Source: Pseudanabaena sp. PCC 7367
GTDB taxonomy: Bacteria > Cyanobacteriota > Cyanobacteriia > Pseudanabaenales > Pseudanabaenaceae
Length of the DNA stretch: 64,000 nt
Assembly: GCF_000317065.1 (NCBI RefSeq)
Contig: NC_019701.1
Span: forward strand, 3,234,001 to 3,298,000
Direction of reading: 5' to 3'
The first letter of the stretch is position 1; the number at the start of each line of letters is the position of its first letter. Of this stretch, positions 41,265-48,434 are shown in pieces. Made by a program: the position numbers and the translations under genes. The notes below the pieces were generated by a model. That model searched no databases. It saw nothing but the letters and a program-made list of their open reading frames with translations, and had not been told where the DNA came from.

Positions 41265-41535
41265 ATCTATGATCTCAATTTCTATTTGCTCAACCGCAGC
41301 TTTTTCCCTCTCGATCGCAGCCTACCCAATCCCCCACCCGCAAATATCAGCAAACATAAATCTTAGCGATCGCCGCAATTAAATTAAAACCATTTGAACC
41401 GATCGCCAAGTACCCAAGTCTTAACCTATGTATTGAGTGTATTGAGTTGATATTGAATCAATATTTAGGCAATCAGCTTAAAAATTGAGAAAACCGTAAA
41501 TATGTTAAGTATGTGGATTGGTTGGACGGTCATCA

Positions 41536-42198
41536 ATGATCAGATTCAACCAACCAATGACCGAAGTATGGGGGATACCAACCGCGATCGTGATTTCTGC
41601 CAGTAGCCCAGTTAGCTCAAGTCAGCCAGAGTCAGATGATTACCTGGTGCAGCAATGCTTGCAAGGTAATAAACAAAGCTTTGGCCAGCTCTATCAACGC
41701 CATCAAACCAAGGTGCGATCGACCCTCTATCAGCTTTGCGGCCTGGATGGGTTAGATGATCTGGTGCAGGATGTGTTCCTGCGTGCCTGGAAAGGATTGA
41801 GCAAATTCAAACGCAATGCCCAATTTTCCACCTGGCTCTATCGGATTACCTGGAATGTGGCTTGCGATCGCCGTAGAGCCTATGCCAAAGATCGTGCCAG
41901 AAGTGTAGCGGTTGATGATGAGCAACTGCAAAACTTTACTGATCCAGAGTTTGCAGGTCAGGGTAGCGATCGGAATCATGGTCTTGCCCAATTGCATTAT
42001 CAAGATCTAGTGCAACGGGGATTGATGCAACTGAGCATAGAACACCGCACTGTATTGGTTTTGCATGACTTAGAAGAACTACCCCAAAAGGAGATCGCCC
42101 AAATTCTGGGCATCCCGGTGGGGACAGTCAAATCCCGTTTATTTCATGCCCGCAGCAGTCTGCGTAAATTTCTAGAATCACAGGGAGTGGAACTATGA
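41536..42198 (+). CDS. ECF-type RNA polymerase sigma factor
   Basis: About 220 residues from ATG 41536 (a TTG at 41518 is possible). Region 2 is L-Y-Q-R-H-Q-x-K-V-R-S-T-L-Y, D-D-L-V-Q-D-V-F-L-R-A-W-K and F-S-T-W-L-Y-R-I-T-W-N; region 4 is L-P-Q-K-E-I-A-Q-I-L-G-I-P-V-G-T-V-K-S-R-L-F-H-A-R, separated by a ~45-residue linker with no regions 1 or 3. A ~35-residue N-terminal tail precedes region 2. Its TGA overlaps the ATG of the next gene (ATGA), indicating translational coupling to a membrane protein that is probably its anti-sigma factor. Confidence 0.92.
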   Translation: MIRFNQPMTEVWGIPTAIVISASSPVSSSQPESDDYLVQQCLQGNKQSFGQLYQRHQTKVRSTLYQLCGLDGLDDLVQDVFLRAWKGLSKFKRNAQFSTWLYRITWNVACDRRRAYAKDRARSVAVDDEQLQNFTDPEFAGQGSDRNHGLAQLHYQDLVQRGLMQLSIEHRTVLVLHDLEELPQKEIAQILGIPVGTVKSRLFHARSSLRKFLESQGVEL

Positions 42199-42656
42199 GT
42201 AAGGCGAATTTTGAGAACCAAGTAGATCAAAACTTGATTGCTTTTATTAAGCAACACAAGCCGATCGCCCCACCTTCCACTGTCAATCTAGAGCAACAAA
42301 TTATGGCGCAGATCGATCAACTACCCGTGGCAGAAGACTCGGCTGTGGTGGTTAGCCAACCTGGCCAAAGCAAGCTCCGTCAGCTAGTTAAGGGGTTGTG
42401 GTTATTGCCAGCGATCGCGGTTGGGGCAGGGATCTTTTGGGCTAGTAATCGCCAGCCTCAGTTTGCGATCAGCGAAGCGGAAAGCTTGGAGATTGAAGCG
42501 GCGTTGCTCAGCAGTTGGTCAGGGGCGATCGACTACGATCTTGATGCGGTTGGCGATCCCTATGCAGAACCAGTCACACCGGAGCTATTTAAGGATAGCT
42601 TTGACGGTGAAGAGAGTGATCGTGATACTTCTTTAACAGAATCAGTTGGGGAATAA
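42195..42656 (+). CDS. Putative membrane anti-sigma factor
   Basis: 153 residues. A cytoplasmic N-terminal ~65 residues is followed by one membrane helix (about 70-85) and an acidic extracytoplasmic tail rich in Asp/Glu. Short single-pass proteins coupled by ATGA to an ECF sigma gene are typically its anti-sigma factors. The usual zinc-finger (H-x3-C-x2-C) motif of ZAS anti-sigmas is absent, so this is an atypical one. The assignment comes from context, not from a recognised domain. Confidence 0.65.
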   Translation: MSKANFENQVDQNLIAFIKQHKPIAPPSTVNLEQQIMAQIDQLPVAEDSAVVVSQPGQSKLRQLVKGLWLLPAIAVGAGIFWASNRQPQFAISEAESLEIEAALLSSWSGAIDYDLDAVGDPYAEPVTPELFKDSFDGEESDRDTSLTESVGE

Positions 42657-42768
42657 TTGCAGCCATTCTACTCCAACCTCCAACCAATTCAGAATTAGGC
42701 TTAGCTCAATTTGCCCAGTTTATTCAAGTTGTCTAAATACACGGCTAAAGCTCAGGTTTACCCCCGGT

Positions 42769-42808
42769 AATTCAATGCAATTCAATGCAATTCAATGTGA
42801 TTCAAGGC
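42769..42808. repeat. 10-bp imperfect tandem repeat
   Basis: AATTCAATGC twice, then AATTCAATGT and GATTCAAGGC, four units head to tail in the spacer between the anti-sigma and Spy-like genes. Confidence 0.85.
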
Positions 42809-42848
42809 AATTAAATTAGTCGAAAACAATTTTCATAGAGGTAAAACT

Positions 42849-43376
42849 ATGTCTCGTTCAATTGATCCCAAGCAAAGTAACAAAAGTATGATGTTGGGTG
42901 TATGTGGCGCGTTGGCGATCGCTGCCTTTGCTGCCCCCATCCTGTCGCAAAATATGGCAATGGCGCAGGAATTTGAACAGCCACTTTTGGCACAGGGTTT
43001 TGAAGGGCCAGAAGCAGGCAGGCGGGGTGGCAGGCTGCTGGAGGAGTTAGATCTTTCTGATGCTCAAAAGCAAGAAATTAAGGAAATTCACGATCGCGGC
43101 CGTAGTCAATCTCAATCGCTTAGAGAACAACTGCGCCAGGAACAGGAAGAACTCAAAAACTTGATGACTGGCACTGCTTCTGAAAGTGCGATTCGCTCTC
43201 AATTTAATCAGGTGAAATCGCTGCGCACCCAACTGGCGGATATCCGGTTTGATCACATGATGGAAGTCCGCGCGGTGATGACTCCAGCCCAGCGGCAAGA
43301 GTTTGCCCAGTTAATGGAAGAACGCCGTGAGCAGTGGCGTGGTCGTCGTAATAACGGTCGTCGTCGATCGCGCTAA
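42849..43376 (+). CDS. Spy/CpxP-like periplasmic protein (LTxxQ family)
   Basis: 175 residues. A signal peptide (hydrophobic stretch ~18-38) is followed by a largely helical, charged domain with L-L-E-E-L-D-L-S-D-A-Q-K-Q-E-I-K-E-I and V-M-T-P-A-Q-R-Q-E-F-A-Q-L-M, two copies of the L-T-x-x-Q-type motif. Spy is an ATP-independent periplasmic chaperone and CpxP a stress-sensor adaptor. A GAGG lies eight bases before the ATG. Placed 192 bp after the sigma/anti-sigma pair, it is a plausible target and feedback partner of that sigma factor. The C-terminus is very basic (R-G-R-R-N-N-G-R-R-R-S-R). Confidence 0.83.
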   Translation: MSRSIDPKQSNKSMMLGVCGALAIAAFAAPILSQNMAMAQEFEQPLLAQGFEGPEAGRRGGRLLEELDLSDAQKQEIKEIHDRGRSQSQSLREQLRQEQEELKNLMTGTASESAIRSQFNQVKSLRTQLADIRFDHMMEVRAVMTPAQRQEFAQLMEERREQWRGRRNNGRRRSR

Positions 43377-43739: not shown

Positions 43740-45524
43740 CTATGAGTTTTTATTGAGTGTCTGTTGAATTTTCTGGCGATATTCTTCATATTGGGAAGAA
43801 TTCAATGGCGAGTAGTTTAGGTTTTTAAACAGACCAGTTAACTGGACAAAACATTCACGCACAGCCTCTTTGCTATCGAAGACAAAATCCGTATCTAGCA
43901 CAATGTCGCAAACCATCCCAAAGGCCTCTTTTTGGCGATCGGTACTGGTTGAGGCATCCACATCATCAAAGGCATCCTGTTGCAGGTAAACCATATCAAT
44001 GAACAGAGCCTTTTGGAAGGTGGCATAATCTTCTACCGAAATACCCTCTTCACCGGTTACCTGAATCATTTGATTGATCCCATCACCACGTTGCAATAAG
44101 TCCTTACAGGCTTTAACCCGATCGACCCAACCGTGGGAGAAGTTTTCTTCAAAATAGCTTTCCAATTGGTCTAAATAGCGAGACCAGGAAATTAAGGGTT
44201 CGATCGCGGGATAGAAACGTCGATAGGCGCGGTTATAACTCAGTCCCAAAAAGGTTTTTACCGTTGACATGGTCGATTGGGTAACTGGCTCTTCAAAGTT
44301 GCCGCCCGCTGGCGAGACACTACCAATGATCGACAGGGAGCCCACCGATTCATCGCGGGTTTTAAATACCCCAGCTCGTTCATATAATGCCTTGATATAG
44401 GAGTCTAGATAGGCAGGGAAAGCTTCTTCACCGGGAATTTCTTCCAAACGCCCAGACATCTCGCGCAAAGCCTGAGCCCAACGGCTAGTAGAATCAGCCA
44501 AAATCAATACATCTAGACCCATCTGGCGGTAATATTCACCCAGGGTAATACCGGTATAAACCGAAGCTTCACGGGCAGCCACCGGCATACTGGAAGTATT
44601 ACAAATTAGAATTGTGCGCTCCATTAATGGGCGACCAGTGTGGGGATCGGTAATTTGTGGAAATTCAGTCAGGGTCTCTACCACTTCGCCAGCCCGCTCA
44701 CCGCAAGCCACAATAATCACTACATCGATCGATGAGTGTTTGGCAATTAGCTGCTGCAAAACGGTTTTACCCGCCCCAAATGGTCCTGGCACACAGGCTG
44801 TACCACCCTTGGCGATCGGGAAAAAGGTATCAATAATTCGGATCGTGGTGTTGAGTAGCTCACTGGGAAACAGCCGCTCGATCGTGCGATTGCTACCCAT
44901 TTGCTCGGTCAATGGTTTCTTGACCGGCCAGGTTTGCACCATAGTTACATTTTTGCTCTTGCCCTGCTCATCGGTGACTCTGGCTACTATGTCACTGACC
45001 TTAAAGTTACCTTCCTGGATGAACTCAACGGTAACACTACCCTTGAGATCAAATGGCACCATTACCTTGTGTAGGATTGAACCTTCGGGCACAGTACCCA
45101 ACACATCCCCAGCGATGAGGCGATCGCCACTGCGGGCTACGGGCGTAAAAAACCATTGCTGATTGCGATCGAGCGCATCCACATACTCGCCCTTGGGCAG
45201 AAAGAAGCCATGTTTTTCGGCCAACACATTCAAGGGACTTTGCAAGCCATCGAACACCTTGCTCAGCAGGCCTGGCCCAAGTTCCACCGAGAGCATCTCG
45301 CCAGTGCAATCAACCTTGTCACCAACCCTAACGCCTTTGATGTCTTCGTAGACCTGCATGTCGGCACGATTGCCCCGAATCCGAATCACCTCAGACTTGA
45401 GGGTTTGCTCACCATTTTTGATGTAGGCAACCTCATTTTTAACCAAGAAACCGGACTCTAGTTCGACTGTGGCGATGTTGCCATTAAGACCAACTACACG
45501 GGCGACGCTGCTTTGACCACTCAT
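43740..45524 (-). CDS. V/A-type ATPase catalytic subunit A, orphan
   Basis: 594 residues, full length for V/A-ATPase subunit A. The N-terminal beta-barrel is followed by the A-specific non-homologous insert, Walker A G-P-F-G-A-G-K-T (residues 247-254), G-E-R-A-G-E-V-V, Walker B D-V-L-I-L-A-D-S-T-S-R-W and E-I-P-G-E-E-A-F-P-A-Y-L. The subunit binds ATP at the catalytic site of a hexamer with subunit B, and works only with the other V1/A1 and membrane subunits. No such gene is next to it: 360 bases and Spy downstream, 542 bases and a cupin upstream. Cyanobacteria normally rely on F-type ATP synthase. Ribosome binding site AGAAGGT lies about 12 bases before the ATG. Confidence 0.92.
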   Translation of the reverse strand: MSGQSSVARVVGLNGNIATVELESGFLVKNEVAYIKNGEQTLKSEVIRIRGNRADMQVYEDIKGVRVGDKVDCTGEMLSVELGPGLLSKVFDGLQSPLNVLAEKHGFFLPKGEYVDALDRNQQWFFTPVARSGDRLIAGDVLGTVPEGSILHKVMVPFDLKGSVTVEFIQEGNFKVSDIVARVTDEQGKSKNVTMVQTWPVKKPLTEQMGSNRTIERLFPSELLNTTIRIIDTFFPIAKGGTACVPGPFGAGKTVLQQLIAKHSSIDVVIIVACGERAGEVVETLTEFPQITDPHTGRPLMERTILICNTSSMPVAAREASVYTGITLGEYYRQMGLDVLILADSTSRWAQALREMSGRLEEIPGEEAFPAYLDSYIKALYERAGVFKTRDESVGSLSIIGSVSPAGGNFEEPVTQSTMSTVKTFLGLSYNRAYRRFYPAIEPLISWSRYLDQLESYFEENFSHGWVDRVKACKDLLQRGDGINQMIQVTGEEGISVEDYATFQKALFIDMVYLQQDAFDDVDASTSTDRQKEAFGMVCDIVLDTDFVFDSKEAVRECFVQLTGLFKNLNYSPLNSSQYEEYRQKIQQTLNKNS

Positions 45525-46066: not shown

Positions 46067-46759
46067 CTAAAACAACTTGGCAGTATGGTTAATCGGATCA
46101 AATGTGTACCGCTGTTTATAGTTGGTCAGGCCATATAAATTAAAAGTGATCGTGGGCTCTTCGCTGACCACTTCCACATGGTGGATCGCTTCTGGCGTAA
46201 AGCTAATTATGTCACCGGGGTTAATGATTTGCTCACCCACCTGCTCAATTCGATCGCTCTGATCGCTGCGATCGCTTGGTTTCTGTTCGTCGGCAAACCC
46301 TTTTTTAGGCGATTTGTTAGACGATCGTCGCCAGACCACGTTTTTTTCCTGGCCATTTACCAGCGCTACAATTCCCCAGGTGGCATGGTTGTGGATTTTT
46401 GACTTACGACCTGGTAACCACACCACTGTTTGCACTGTAAGTGGGAAATCGGGCTCTTCATAAAGGGTTAAAACCGACCAACCCCGCTCCGGATTAGGGG
46501 CTTTATATTCTCCTTGCAGCCAATAGGAACTATTCAACAATCGCCTGACCAAAGGTCGGATTTGCTCTAGCCGCTGGCGATCGTCATCATAGCGCCACAA
46601 TATGTCCTCGATATCAGTTAGGAACCGATAGAGTCGGTAGGTTTGCCCTGAATTTTCCCATTGATCTTCAACAACTGGGCAGACCTCCAATTGGCCATGA
46701 TCATTTACCAACCAATCATTATTTTCAAAATTCATCTGCCGTTTCATCTGCCGTTTCAT
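46067..46759 (-). CDS. Cupin protein related to cysteine dioxygenase
   Basis: Up to 230 residues. Cupin motif 1 is visible as H-N-H-A-T-W-G-I-V-A-L-V-N-G-Q-E, and motif 2 contains N-P-G-D-I-I-S-F-T-P-E-A-I-H-H-V, so three His and a Glu are available to hold iron, as in thiol dioxygenases. An insert rich in Asp/Ser/Lys (S-D-R-S-D-Q-S-D-R) separates them. Substrate is unknown; cysteine dioxygenase-like function is inference. Three ATG codons (46759, 46747, 46735) occur within a triplicated 12-bp repeat; the last gives the most family-like start. Confidence 0.75.
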   Translation of the reverse strand: MKRQMKRQMNFENNDWLVNDHGQLEVCPVVEDQWENSGQTYRLYRFLTDIEDILWRYDDDRQRLEQIRPLVRRLLNSSYWLQGEYKAPNPERGWSVLTLYEEPDFPLTVQTVVWLPGRKSKIHNHATWGIVALVNGQEKNVVWRRSSNKSPKKGFADEQKPSDRSDQSDRIEQVGEQIINPGDIISFTPEAIHHVEVVSEEPTITFNLYGLTNYKQRYTFDPINHTAKLF

Positions 46760-46768
46760 CTGCCGTTT
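46733..46768. repeat. Three perfect 12-bp tandem repeats carrying start codons
   Basis: CATCTGCCGTTT occurs three times in a row (46733-46744, 46745-46756, 46757-46768). On the minus strand each unit contains ATG, so the cupin may start with M-K-R-Q-M-K-R-Q-M or any shortened version. Confidence 0.95.
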
Positions 46769-47281
46769 AATAGGTTTAACGCTTTTGTGGGGCTTTAAAC
46801 ATGCTTAACTTAAATTTAAAGGGATGCAACTCATATACGTGACCCCAAAGGCGATCGGATCTGTGCCCAGCTTATAAGCCAAAGATGAAAATGCTGCCAA
46901 CAAAAAATTTCAAATATCTGTCTGAGCTGATATATCTCTGAATCGATTGCTGGATCATTAAATCATCCTACCAACGAGTAACGCCTGGAAACCAGTTATC
47001 AAAGCCTTTTAGCTTGTTTGCCAGCTTATCTATAAACGGGTGAATAGCTTTTTTCGATCGCCAATGCTATATTTTGGGTACATGTGCTTAGCTTAACCTA
47101 AGCTTAATTAAATTCAGGTATTAAGTTTGGATTGCTTAAGCATATATAAATTTAAACTAATCCAACTTTATCCCCGTCTAGTGGAATATCTGTGTGTGGT
47201 CTGACGCGAAAGCTAATTGTCCGATCGCACTTAAAAACATTGTTGAAATTGCTTTAAATAGTTTGTGGAGAAATCAAAAGT
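46769..47281. other. Intergenic region between the cupin and DPCAA-repeat lipoprotein genes
   Basis: 513 AT-rich bases, divergent promoters expected. No gene, tRNA or strong structure recognised. Confidence 0.45.
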
Positions 47282-47713
47282 ATGAAGGTTAAATATTTTG
47301 CCTCTGTGGCAGTTGCTTCTATTTTGGGACTTGGCCTAGTCACTTCTTGCGCCCAACCAGAAACAACCACCCCAGCCGATCCGGCTGCTGAGCAGGAACA
47401 AACTAATGAAGCTGAGCCAGCCGCAGACACTACTACTGAAGATCCCTGTGCCGCTGAAGATCCTTGCGCCGCCAAAGATCCCTGTGCCGCCAAAGATCCC
47501 TGTGCCGCCAAAGATCCCTGTGCTGCTGAAGATCCTTGCGCCGCCAAAGATCCCTGTGCCGCTGAAGATCCTTGCGCCGCCAAAGATCCCTGTGCCGCTG
47601 AAGATCCTTGCGCCGCTAAAGACCCCTGTGCCGCTGAAGATCCTTGCGCTGCCAAAGACCCCTGTGCCGCTGAAGATCCTTGCGCCGCTAAAGACCCCTG
47701 CGCTGCTGGCTAA
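47282..47713 (+). CDS. Lipoprotein with 15 DPCAA hexapeptide repeats
   Basis: 143 residues. A signal peptide ends in the lipobox V-T-S-C, giving a lipidated Cys23. Residues 24-52 are Thr/Pro/Glu/Ala-rich. From residue 53 to 142 there are 15 exact repeats of (E/K)-D-P-C-A-A, in which the first residue is E,E,K,K,K and then alternates E/K. Every repeat contains one cysteine, so the mature protein has 15 evenly spaced thiols plus the lipidated one. Cys-Pro repeats of this type suggest metal binding or disulfide-linked assembly; function is unknown. It stands alone. Confidence 0.85.
   Translation: MKVKYFASVAVASILGLGLVTSCAQPETTTPADPAAEQEQTNEAEPAADTTTEDPCAAEDPCAAKDPCAAKDPCAAKDPCAAEDPCAAKDPCAAEDPCAAKDPCAAEDPCAAKDPCAAEDPCAAKDPCAAEDPCAAKDPCAAG
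47438..47707 (+). repeat. 18-bp coding minisatellite (15 units)
   Basis: GA(A/G)/AAA-GA(T/C)-CC(C/T)-TG(T/C)-GCC/GCT-GC(C/T) units repeat 15 times; the later part alternates two unit types, giving a 36-bp higher-order period. Differences are mostly synonymous third positions, suggesting recent expansion with purifying selection on the peptide. Confidence 0.95.
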
Positions 47714-48197: not shown

Positions 48198-48434
48198 ATG
48201 CGCAATCCTTCCCTCAGAGAACAACCCCGCCGTCAGCCTGCTCCCGTTGTATCTACCAAGCAAACGGTTTCCATTCTTGGTTGGCTCCAGCAAAACAATC
48301 GCTTACTTGAGCGCGAGACGGAGATCGGCTTTGAGTATAAAAATGAAAGCCAGGAGCTAGATGCACTTGTGGTTGGTGATAACTACGAAGATGACGACGA
48401 CGATGATGATGATGACGACGACGATGATGATTAG
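48198..48434 (+). CDS. DUF3134 family protein with poly-aspartate tail
   Basis: 78 residues. The start M-R-N-P-S-L-R-E-Q-P-R and the middle S-I-L-G-W-L-Q-Q-N-N-R-L fit the small DUF3134 family found in cyanobacteria. The last 15 residues after Y-E are all aspartate, encoded by mixed GAC/GAT codons. Function unknown; the acidic tail could bind cations or basic proteins. A terminator follows at 48498-48527. Confidence 0.78.
   Translation: MRNPSLREQPRRQPAPVVSTKQTVSILGWLQQNNRLLERETEIGFEYKNESQELDALVVGDNYEDDDDDDDDDDDDDD

Follow-up and report, generated by a model that had tools for sequence, protein, structure and literature searches.

A stand-alone cysteine-hexapeptide lipoprotein beside a thiol-dioxygenase-like cupin in Pseudanabaena sp. 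PCC 7367, a candidate extracytoplasmic polythiol

The window, i.e., the whole stretch of 64,000 nucleotides analysed from Pseudanabaena sp. PCC 7367 (genome of 4.89 Mb in two contigs), harbors a short gene for a predicted lipoprotein built of cysteine-bearing hexapeptides, next to a divergent gene for a thiol-dioxygenase-like cupin. The features considered are the following, residue numbers being those of the lipoprotein.

41518..42198, + strand: ECF sigma factor gene, about 5 kb upstream of the array
46067..46759, - strand: thiol-dioxygenase-like cupin gene, cytosolic-type product, divergent from the array
46760..47281, no strand: divergent intergenic region between cupin and array
47282..47713, + strand: array lipoprotein gene, ATG start, 143 aa
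Residues 1-22: signal peptide
Residues 20-23: lipobox VTSC with Cys23
Residues 24-52: acidic linker
Residues 53-142: array of 15 (E/K)DPCAA units
47439..47708, + strand: DNA repeat array, 18-bp unit with a 36-bp higher-order period (7.5 x 36 bp)

The ECF sigma factor gene is followed by one whose product, a short membrane protein, is its likely anti-sigma factor (42195-42656, +), and by one for an exported LTXXQ/Metal_resist protein of Spy/CnrX-like type (42849-43376, +) lying 4 kb upstream of the array, and this row of three genes (41518-43376, +) recalls the CnrYXH metal-sensing systems. A second array protein of the same genome, carrying a YHS domain, likewise adjoins an ECF sigma/anti-sigma pair. 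Closer to the cupin, a 594-aa product (43740-45524, -) looks like the catalytic subunit A of a V/A-type ATP synthase; V-type ATPase genes are uncommon in the cyanobacterial phylum. On the 3' side of the array, a 78-aa ORF (48198-48434, +) carries a C-terminal aspartate run that corresponds to a DNA repeat (48377-48431).

The lipoprotein of 15 cysteine hexapeptides announced in a preliminary description of this DNA was recovered in full, with Cys at every sixth residue across 15 exact DPCAA units and a total of 16 Cys, i.e., 15 in the array and the lipobox Cys23. The 18-bp unit and its 36-bp higher-order period were also found by Tandem Repeats Finder (score 449). An alternation of acidic and basic charge had been proposed as well, and only part of it stands: the E/K change is the sole amino-acid variation among units, but its order (E E K K K E K E K E K E K E K) is not strictly alternating. 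The 18-bp unit occurs in nine DNA versions that differ at six positions among the 15 units, five of which are synonymous third positions and one the E/K change (pS 0.56 vs. pN 0.04). Such a repeat is far beyond chance expectation.

One antisense frame of the array is also stop-free and equally constant, with a single variable residue column, so that the repeat alone cannot fix the strand and a strand call from unit variation was rejected. The coding strand is instead fixed by the signal peptide, the lipobox and the same-frame fusions present in relatives. The sequence VTSC, placed after a signal peptide, fits the bacterial lipoprotein pattern [LVI][ASTVI][GAS]C, and a lipobox-type Cys is also found in array proteins at other loci (L017, L196, L201, and L202). 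From these sequence features, the gene is judged genuine and its predicted product is a lipid-anchored exported protein. Profile searches of this protein against Pfam and NCBIfam matched no family, and a single-sequence AlphaFold model yielded no fold (pLDDT 47), which predicts a disordered chain. Its origin as a truncated array-YHS or array-thioredoxin gene was rejected, as tblastn found no remnant of either domain downstream and as stand-alone arrays recur in unrelated genera. A recent origin of the whole locus by duplication from the paralogue was rejected too, the upstream regions having no significant similarity.

Arrays of the (N/D)PCA(A/S/G)K type were found in Cyanobacteria, Proteobacteria, Rokubacteria, and Nitrospinota. 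In a phylum set of 386 cyanobacterial genomes, 25 matched at E < 1e-5; reading of the ORFs revealed true PCA-type arrays in 15 of these and one more cut by a contig end, arrays with other units (CALLNN, CDEKSR, and TNPCTR) being left out of the count. The window array was matched in 14 of 38 genomes of the family set, one match (G030) being weak. A DNA pattern of two and a half units occurred in at least 117 stretches of the genome collection, and the matches listed for it include Beta-, Gamma-, and Alphaproteobacteria, Rokubacteria, Nitrospinota, and cyanobacteria. Some weak plasmid matches at 25-43% identity (Cupriavidus copper resistance protein B; Staphylococcus, Rhodococcus, and Spiroplasma) were taken as compositional. 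The window protein carries 15 units behind its signal peptide and in the frame used by fused relatives, where at least four such units define the module; it is the stand-alone form of a widespread cysteine-hexapeptide array module.

The unit number varies among relatives, as the preliminary description had predicted: four Picosynechococcus strains have eight units, the protein of one of them being a rearranged version of 94 aa, and strain NIES-970 has 12. The same description had named absent or frame-broken repeats in close relatives as telling against it, and neither is the case. On plasmid pAQ7 of Picosynechococcus PCC 7002, the array (L201 9012-9308; NC_010474.1 183289-183585) is annotated on the wrong strand: SYNPCC7002_RS16885 is an antisense ORF and the lipoprotein lies on the opposite strand. 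The same error affects the annotations of PCC 7117 and PCC 73109, whereas PCC 8807 is annotated correctly. Some thioredoxin proteins (L072:9323-9838 and L022:8751-9311) retain array remnants whose units have lost Cys (NPGAAK and NPYAAK), which suggests that arrays may decay when short.

The least probable of the readings considered is that of a flexible surface spacer, in which Cys would merely crosslink or anchor the chain and the array would expand by neutral DNA slippage. The predicted disorder and a repeat DNA prone to copy-number change are consistent with it; nevertheless, Cys and Pro are conserved in all units against a background of variable third bases, the same motif recurs in several phyla with redox partners, and Cys-less units (NPYAAK and NPGAAK) are confined to short thioredoxin-fused or array-less copies.

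In cyanobacteria, the array follows the signal peptide and is either fused to a thioredoxin-like CxxC domain, fused to a YHS (seleno)protein domain, or stand-alone. The fused thioredoxin-like domain has a WCxxC motif (PF00085, 8e-13); no array-thioredoxin gene was found in the genome of PCC 7367. The YHS form is represented in this genome by the paralogue (C2:952167-952457, -), in which nine units precede a YHS domain (NF041384, 3e-52), and the PCC 7367, G207, and G251 genomes each carry an array-YHS gene away from the stand-alone array. This paralogue resembles the NF041384 family in carrying the YHS domain after the array, whereas the window gene has neither a YHS domain nor a downstream remnant of one, and the curated description of the family omits the array. 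Metal-binding YHS/TRASH domains have a ligand set of one Asp and three Cys (PMC4626032). In each of 11 array-YHS proteins, the YHS part has instead a single Cys, in YGGYC, and a copper reading through this domain was thus rejected. The YHS (seleno)protein family includes selenocysteine forms, Sec replacing a Cys (GxU), and DUF3179, a recurrent array neighbour, likewise has Sec forms (PMC13188914). With the single Cys of the YHS part, these forms are a pointer to thiol/selenol redox chemistry.

In Proteobacteria, arrays are fused to a SoxA/TsdA-type monohaem cytochrome (PF21342, 3e-11; the SoxA model itself scores 3e-9, under its cut-off) or to cytochrome P460, and short stand-alone arrays adjoin array-cytochrome genes. 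Next to array-cytochrome genes of this phylum lies DUF6969 (loci L079-L152, e.g., L148:5529-6227), which has an invariant YYHxH...EHGHFH motif pointing to a metal site and is probably a metal enzyme of the array-cytochrome system. Its AlphaFold model is confident (pLDDT 92) and has no fold match in the PDB (best E of 0.76 in Foldseek and best Z of 3.9 in VIA), so that the fold was dropped as a functional clue, nothing solved resembling it.

Gene neighbours were clustered from 1145 predicted proteins around 26 cyanobacterial loci and 80 other loci, mostly proteobacterial, taken among the matches listed for the DNA pattern. The cupin is found at 17 of the 26 cyanobacterial loci, a histidine kinase, usually adjoining a response regulator, at 15, and CcdA/DsbD_TM at 14; ECF sigma factors (6/26), anti-sigma factors (4/26), TrxB-like proteins (4/26), DUF3179 (3/26), and AhpC/TSA (3/26) follow. 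At the 80 loci among the matches listed, the recurrent neighbours are DUF6969 (26), sigma factors (11), DUF3179 (11), DUF302 (10), MerA-like disulfide oxidoreductases (10), and YeeE/YedE (7). Across the approximately 106 loci, no metal transporter, metal ATPase, RND pump, or metallochaperone recurs, and a P-type ATPase motif is present at a single one. CcdA and exported thioredoxin cluster with the array in many relatives: G021, for instance, shows in order a thioredoxin, a stand-alone 10-unit array, an array-thioredoxin gene, and CcdA, from which its cupin and two-component genes diverge. In PCC 7367 the CcdA and thioredoxin-like genes lie away from the window.

These partners bear on the idea that the array Cys act as a sulfur carrier, holding persulfide or thiosulfonate as multiple equivalents of the SoxY swinging-arm Cys and passing it between thioredoxin, SoxA-type, or TsdA-type enzymes, with the thiol dioxygenase and YeeE/DoxX on the same sulfur route. 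The proteobacterial fusions to SoxA/TsdA-type cytochromes and the YeeE/YedE Sulf_transp neighbours speak in its favor, as do a DoxX neighbour in Leptolyngbya and the thiol-dioxygenase neighbour in cyanobacteria. We consider it unlikely, given that arrays are not recurrently flanked by a complete sox or thiosulfate locus, that the PCC 7367 genome shows just the dioxygenase, and that the SoxY swinging arm is GGCGG, with no likeness to DPCAAK.

The cupin is a near-obligatory companion of the array in cyanobacteria. It aligns with solved thiol dioxygenases for mercaptosuccinate (9e-13), cysteine (3e-12), and 3-mercaptopropionate (1e-10), and its HxH pair and third His match theirs (HNH and IHH positions vs. 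8vni), i.e., the three-His iron site of these cupins is present by alignment. Unlike these named enzymes, it is predicted by homology, and a Pfam search gave no family above cut-off. It occurs in 15 of 16 array genomes of the phylum set vs. 69 of 370 others (Fisher 5e-10), an association that stands at about 7e-5 when counted by genus and is not otherwise corrected for kinship. In the family set, the cupin is present in all 14 array genomes vs. 9 of 24 others, or 13/13 vs. 10/25 without the weak G030. Both genes are at most 5.3 kb apart in all 15 genomes and at most 1.5 kb apart in 12; in the window, the stand-alone array lies 0.5 kb from the cupin, and stand-alone arrays within about 1.5 kb of one are also seen at L196, L197, L201-L203, L205-L207, and L022. 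Array-only lipoproteins adjoin the cupin in G207 and G251, the cupin of the latter being read as two ORFs, and on the plasmids of Picosynechococcus PCC 7002, 7117, 73109, 8807, and NIES-970, and Leptolyngbya BL0902 also has an array-only protein beside it. In PCC 7002 the cupin gene of the pair is SYNPCC7002_RS16005. Near the plasmid pairs, DoxX is found in BL0902 and a weak match to MauE in PCC 7002; a VTT-domain protein and pyridine-nucleotide disulfide oxidoreductases (Pyr_redox) are further neighbours. Ergothioneine biosynthesis genes egtD/egtB lie a few kb from the pair on pAQ7 (L201 1526-3834), another link to small thiols. The cupin has no signal peptide by eye and is probably cytosolic, whereas the array is exported, so that their linkage could reflect shared regulation only.

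An oxygenase-like gene that so nearly always accompanies the array could also modify its Cys before export, the cupin in cyanobacteria or DUF6969 in Proteobacteria acting as MNIO does on bufferins. The near-obligatory pairing is in line with this, together with the frequency of DUF6969 among the matches listed (26/80) and its invariant motif. We regard such tailoring as improbable, as the solved structures related to the cupin carry the names of small thiols, no relative of DUF6969 could be detected by fold, and MNIO is absent. Bufferins and EGKCG oxazolins are MNIO-modified exported Cys-repeat peptides (PMC12452194). Like the arrays, bufferins are exported low-complexity Cys-repeat proteins whose length varies with repeat number, and both recurrently have DoxX and ECF sigma genes in their vicinity. 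Unlike them, the array has (N/D)PCAAK instead of EGKCG units, no predicted beta-helix, and cupin, CcdA, and thioredoxin genes in the place of MNIO. Membership among bufferins was rejected for the window protein, whose DPCAAK unit has no Pfam match and which shows neither EGKCG units nor a DUF2282 domain, on the ground that the PCC 7367 genome has no MNIO gene (PF05114, DUF692); a PF05114 search over 20 array genomes gave a match in a single one and none in the other 19. The array is thus not a bufferin, though it may work similarly.

Regulatory sequences differ between the window and its relatives. Where a two-component system is linked, YTCAT-N6-YTCAT occurs between cupin and array 20 times over all regions tested vs. 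2.1 expected, spacers of 4, 5, and 7 not being enriched. The linked response regulator and kinase have copper/heavy-metal and stress families as their nearest matches by score, below cut-offs, and near many array relatives both the score and the DNA half-site of the response regulator are like those of CopR, whose site in Synechocystis is TTCATN4-5TTCAT (PMC4182526). The intergenic region 46760..47281 of the window carries an 11-bp-period direct repeat AGCTTAA; the YTCAT-N6-YTCAT element is absent from it, save for one degenerate site, and no two-component genes are linked to the window array, so that this copy is probably under other control. CopM and CopRS of Synechocystis (PMC4335983, PMC4182526) offer a parallel, i.e., a periplasmic binding protein under a two-component system, with TTCAT half-sites shared by the promoters of array relatives. 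In contrast, no homology to the array is shown, the spacing is N6 vs. N4-5, and no copBAC-like efflux genes lie near arrays.

Binding of Cu(I), Zn, Cd, and Hg is another property of Cys-rich disordered peptides. An envelope metal sponge is accordingly the main rival to a redox role: the array would chelate copper or another soft metal in the manner of metallothioneins, copper-storage proteins, or bufferins, and thioredoxin and CcdA would keep the ligands reduced in relatives. The 15 thiols and the CopR-like regulator of relatives keep this reading in play, the YTCAT half-sites, the DoxX and ECF sigma genes that recur near arrays as near copper-chelating bufferins, and the upstream LTXXQ/Metal_resist protein being further points for it. 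We nonetheless find it doubtful. Metal ATPases, RND pumps, and metallochaperones do not recur beside arrays, the YHS part misses the metal ligand set, and the CopR-like element has another spacing and is missing at the window. Moreover, classical metal clusters, including those of metallothioneins, use CxC/CxxC spacing, whereas the window array has C-x5-C only.

The preliminary description had left metal binding and redox buffering side by side; the redox half gains from the thioredoxin-like CxxC and YHS fusions and from the thiol-redox neighbours, namely CcdA, thioredoxin, TrxB-like proteins, the cupin, DoxX, and disulfide oxidoreductases, and the metal half found little support. Fusions and gene neighbours point to thiol/sulfur redox more than to a plain metal store. 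We favor, at a probability of roughly 45%, the view that the window protein is an extracytoplasmic polythiol in a thiol-redox module, a chemistry inferred from its anatomy, fusions, and linkage. The exported, lipid-anchored, disordered chain would offer a dense flexible pool of exposed thiols, in which the even C-x5-C spacing would suit numerous exchangeable sites acting independently better than a single folded metal cluster. The array Cys might accept oxidising equivalents, or sulfane or small-thiol adducts; in relatives, the linked CcdA-thioredoxin route would keep the array thiols reduced or return them to that state, while the cytosolic dioxygenase would handle low-molecular thiols that are formed or set free in the same condition. 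This proposed route of relatives resembles the trans-thylakoid CcdA-HCF164/CCS5 pathway (PMC3842002) and DsbD/Scs-type systems, where CcdA and an exported thioredoxin-like CxxC protein carry reducing power across the membrane; unlike these, array loci add a polythiol, thioredoxin-fused or stand-alone, and a thiol-dioxygenase-like gene.

Exported Cys-repeat proteins are already known. The literature searched contains the array motif in no paper, and a search by guessed locus tags retrieved nothing on the array of PCC 7002; the DPCAAK-type unit, its fusions, and its thiol-dioxygenase link, as read from sequence, were thus not found described. More tentatively, (N/D)PCAAK arrays as a whole could be undescribed cross-phylum exported polythiol cofactor domains, in which numerous identical, exchangeable Cys would carry reducing equivalents or sulfur for a dedicated envelope thiol system. 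Their partners would be thioredoxin, CcdA, and YHS in cyanobacteria and, in Proteobacteria, SoxA/TsdA-type cytochromes, and they would be run with a thiol dioxygenase that may act on the array or on thiols released from it. The module recurs in several phyla on quite different redox domains and has no profile entry. A polythiol carrier would represent a new type of envelope redox part, and a metal sponge a bufferin-like class devoid of MNIO enzyme. In either case, the near-obligatory link between cupin and array provides a testable context for an orphan cyanobacterial thiol-dioxygenase-like family, and as the pair is present in Picosynechococcus PCC 7002, a model strain, the question may be tested there.
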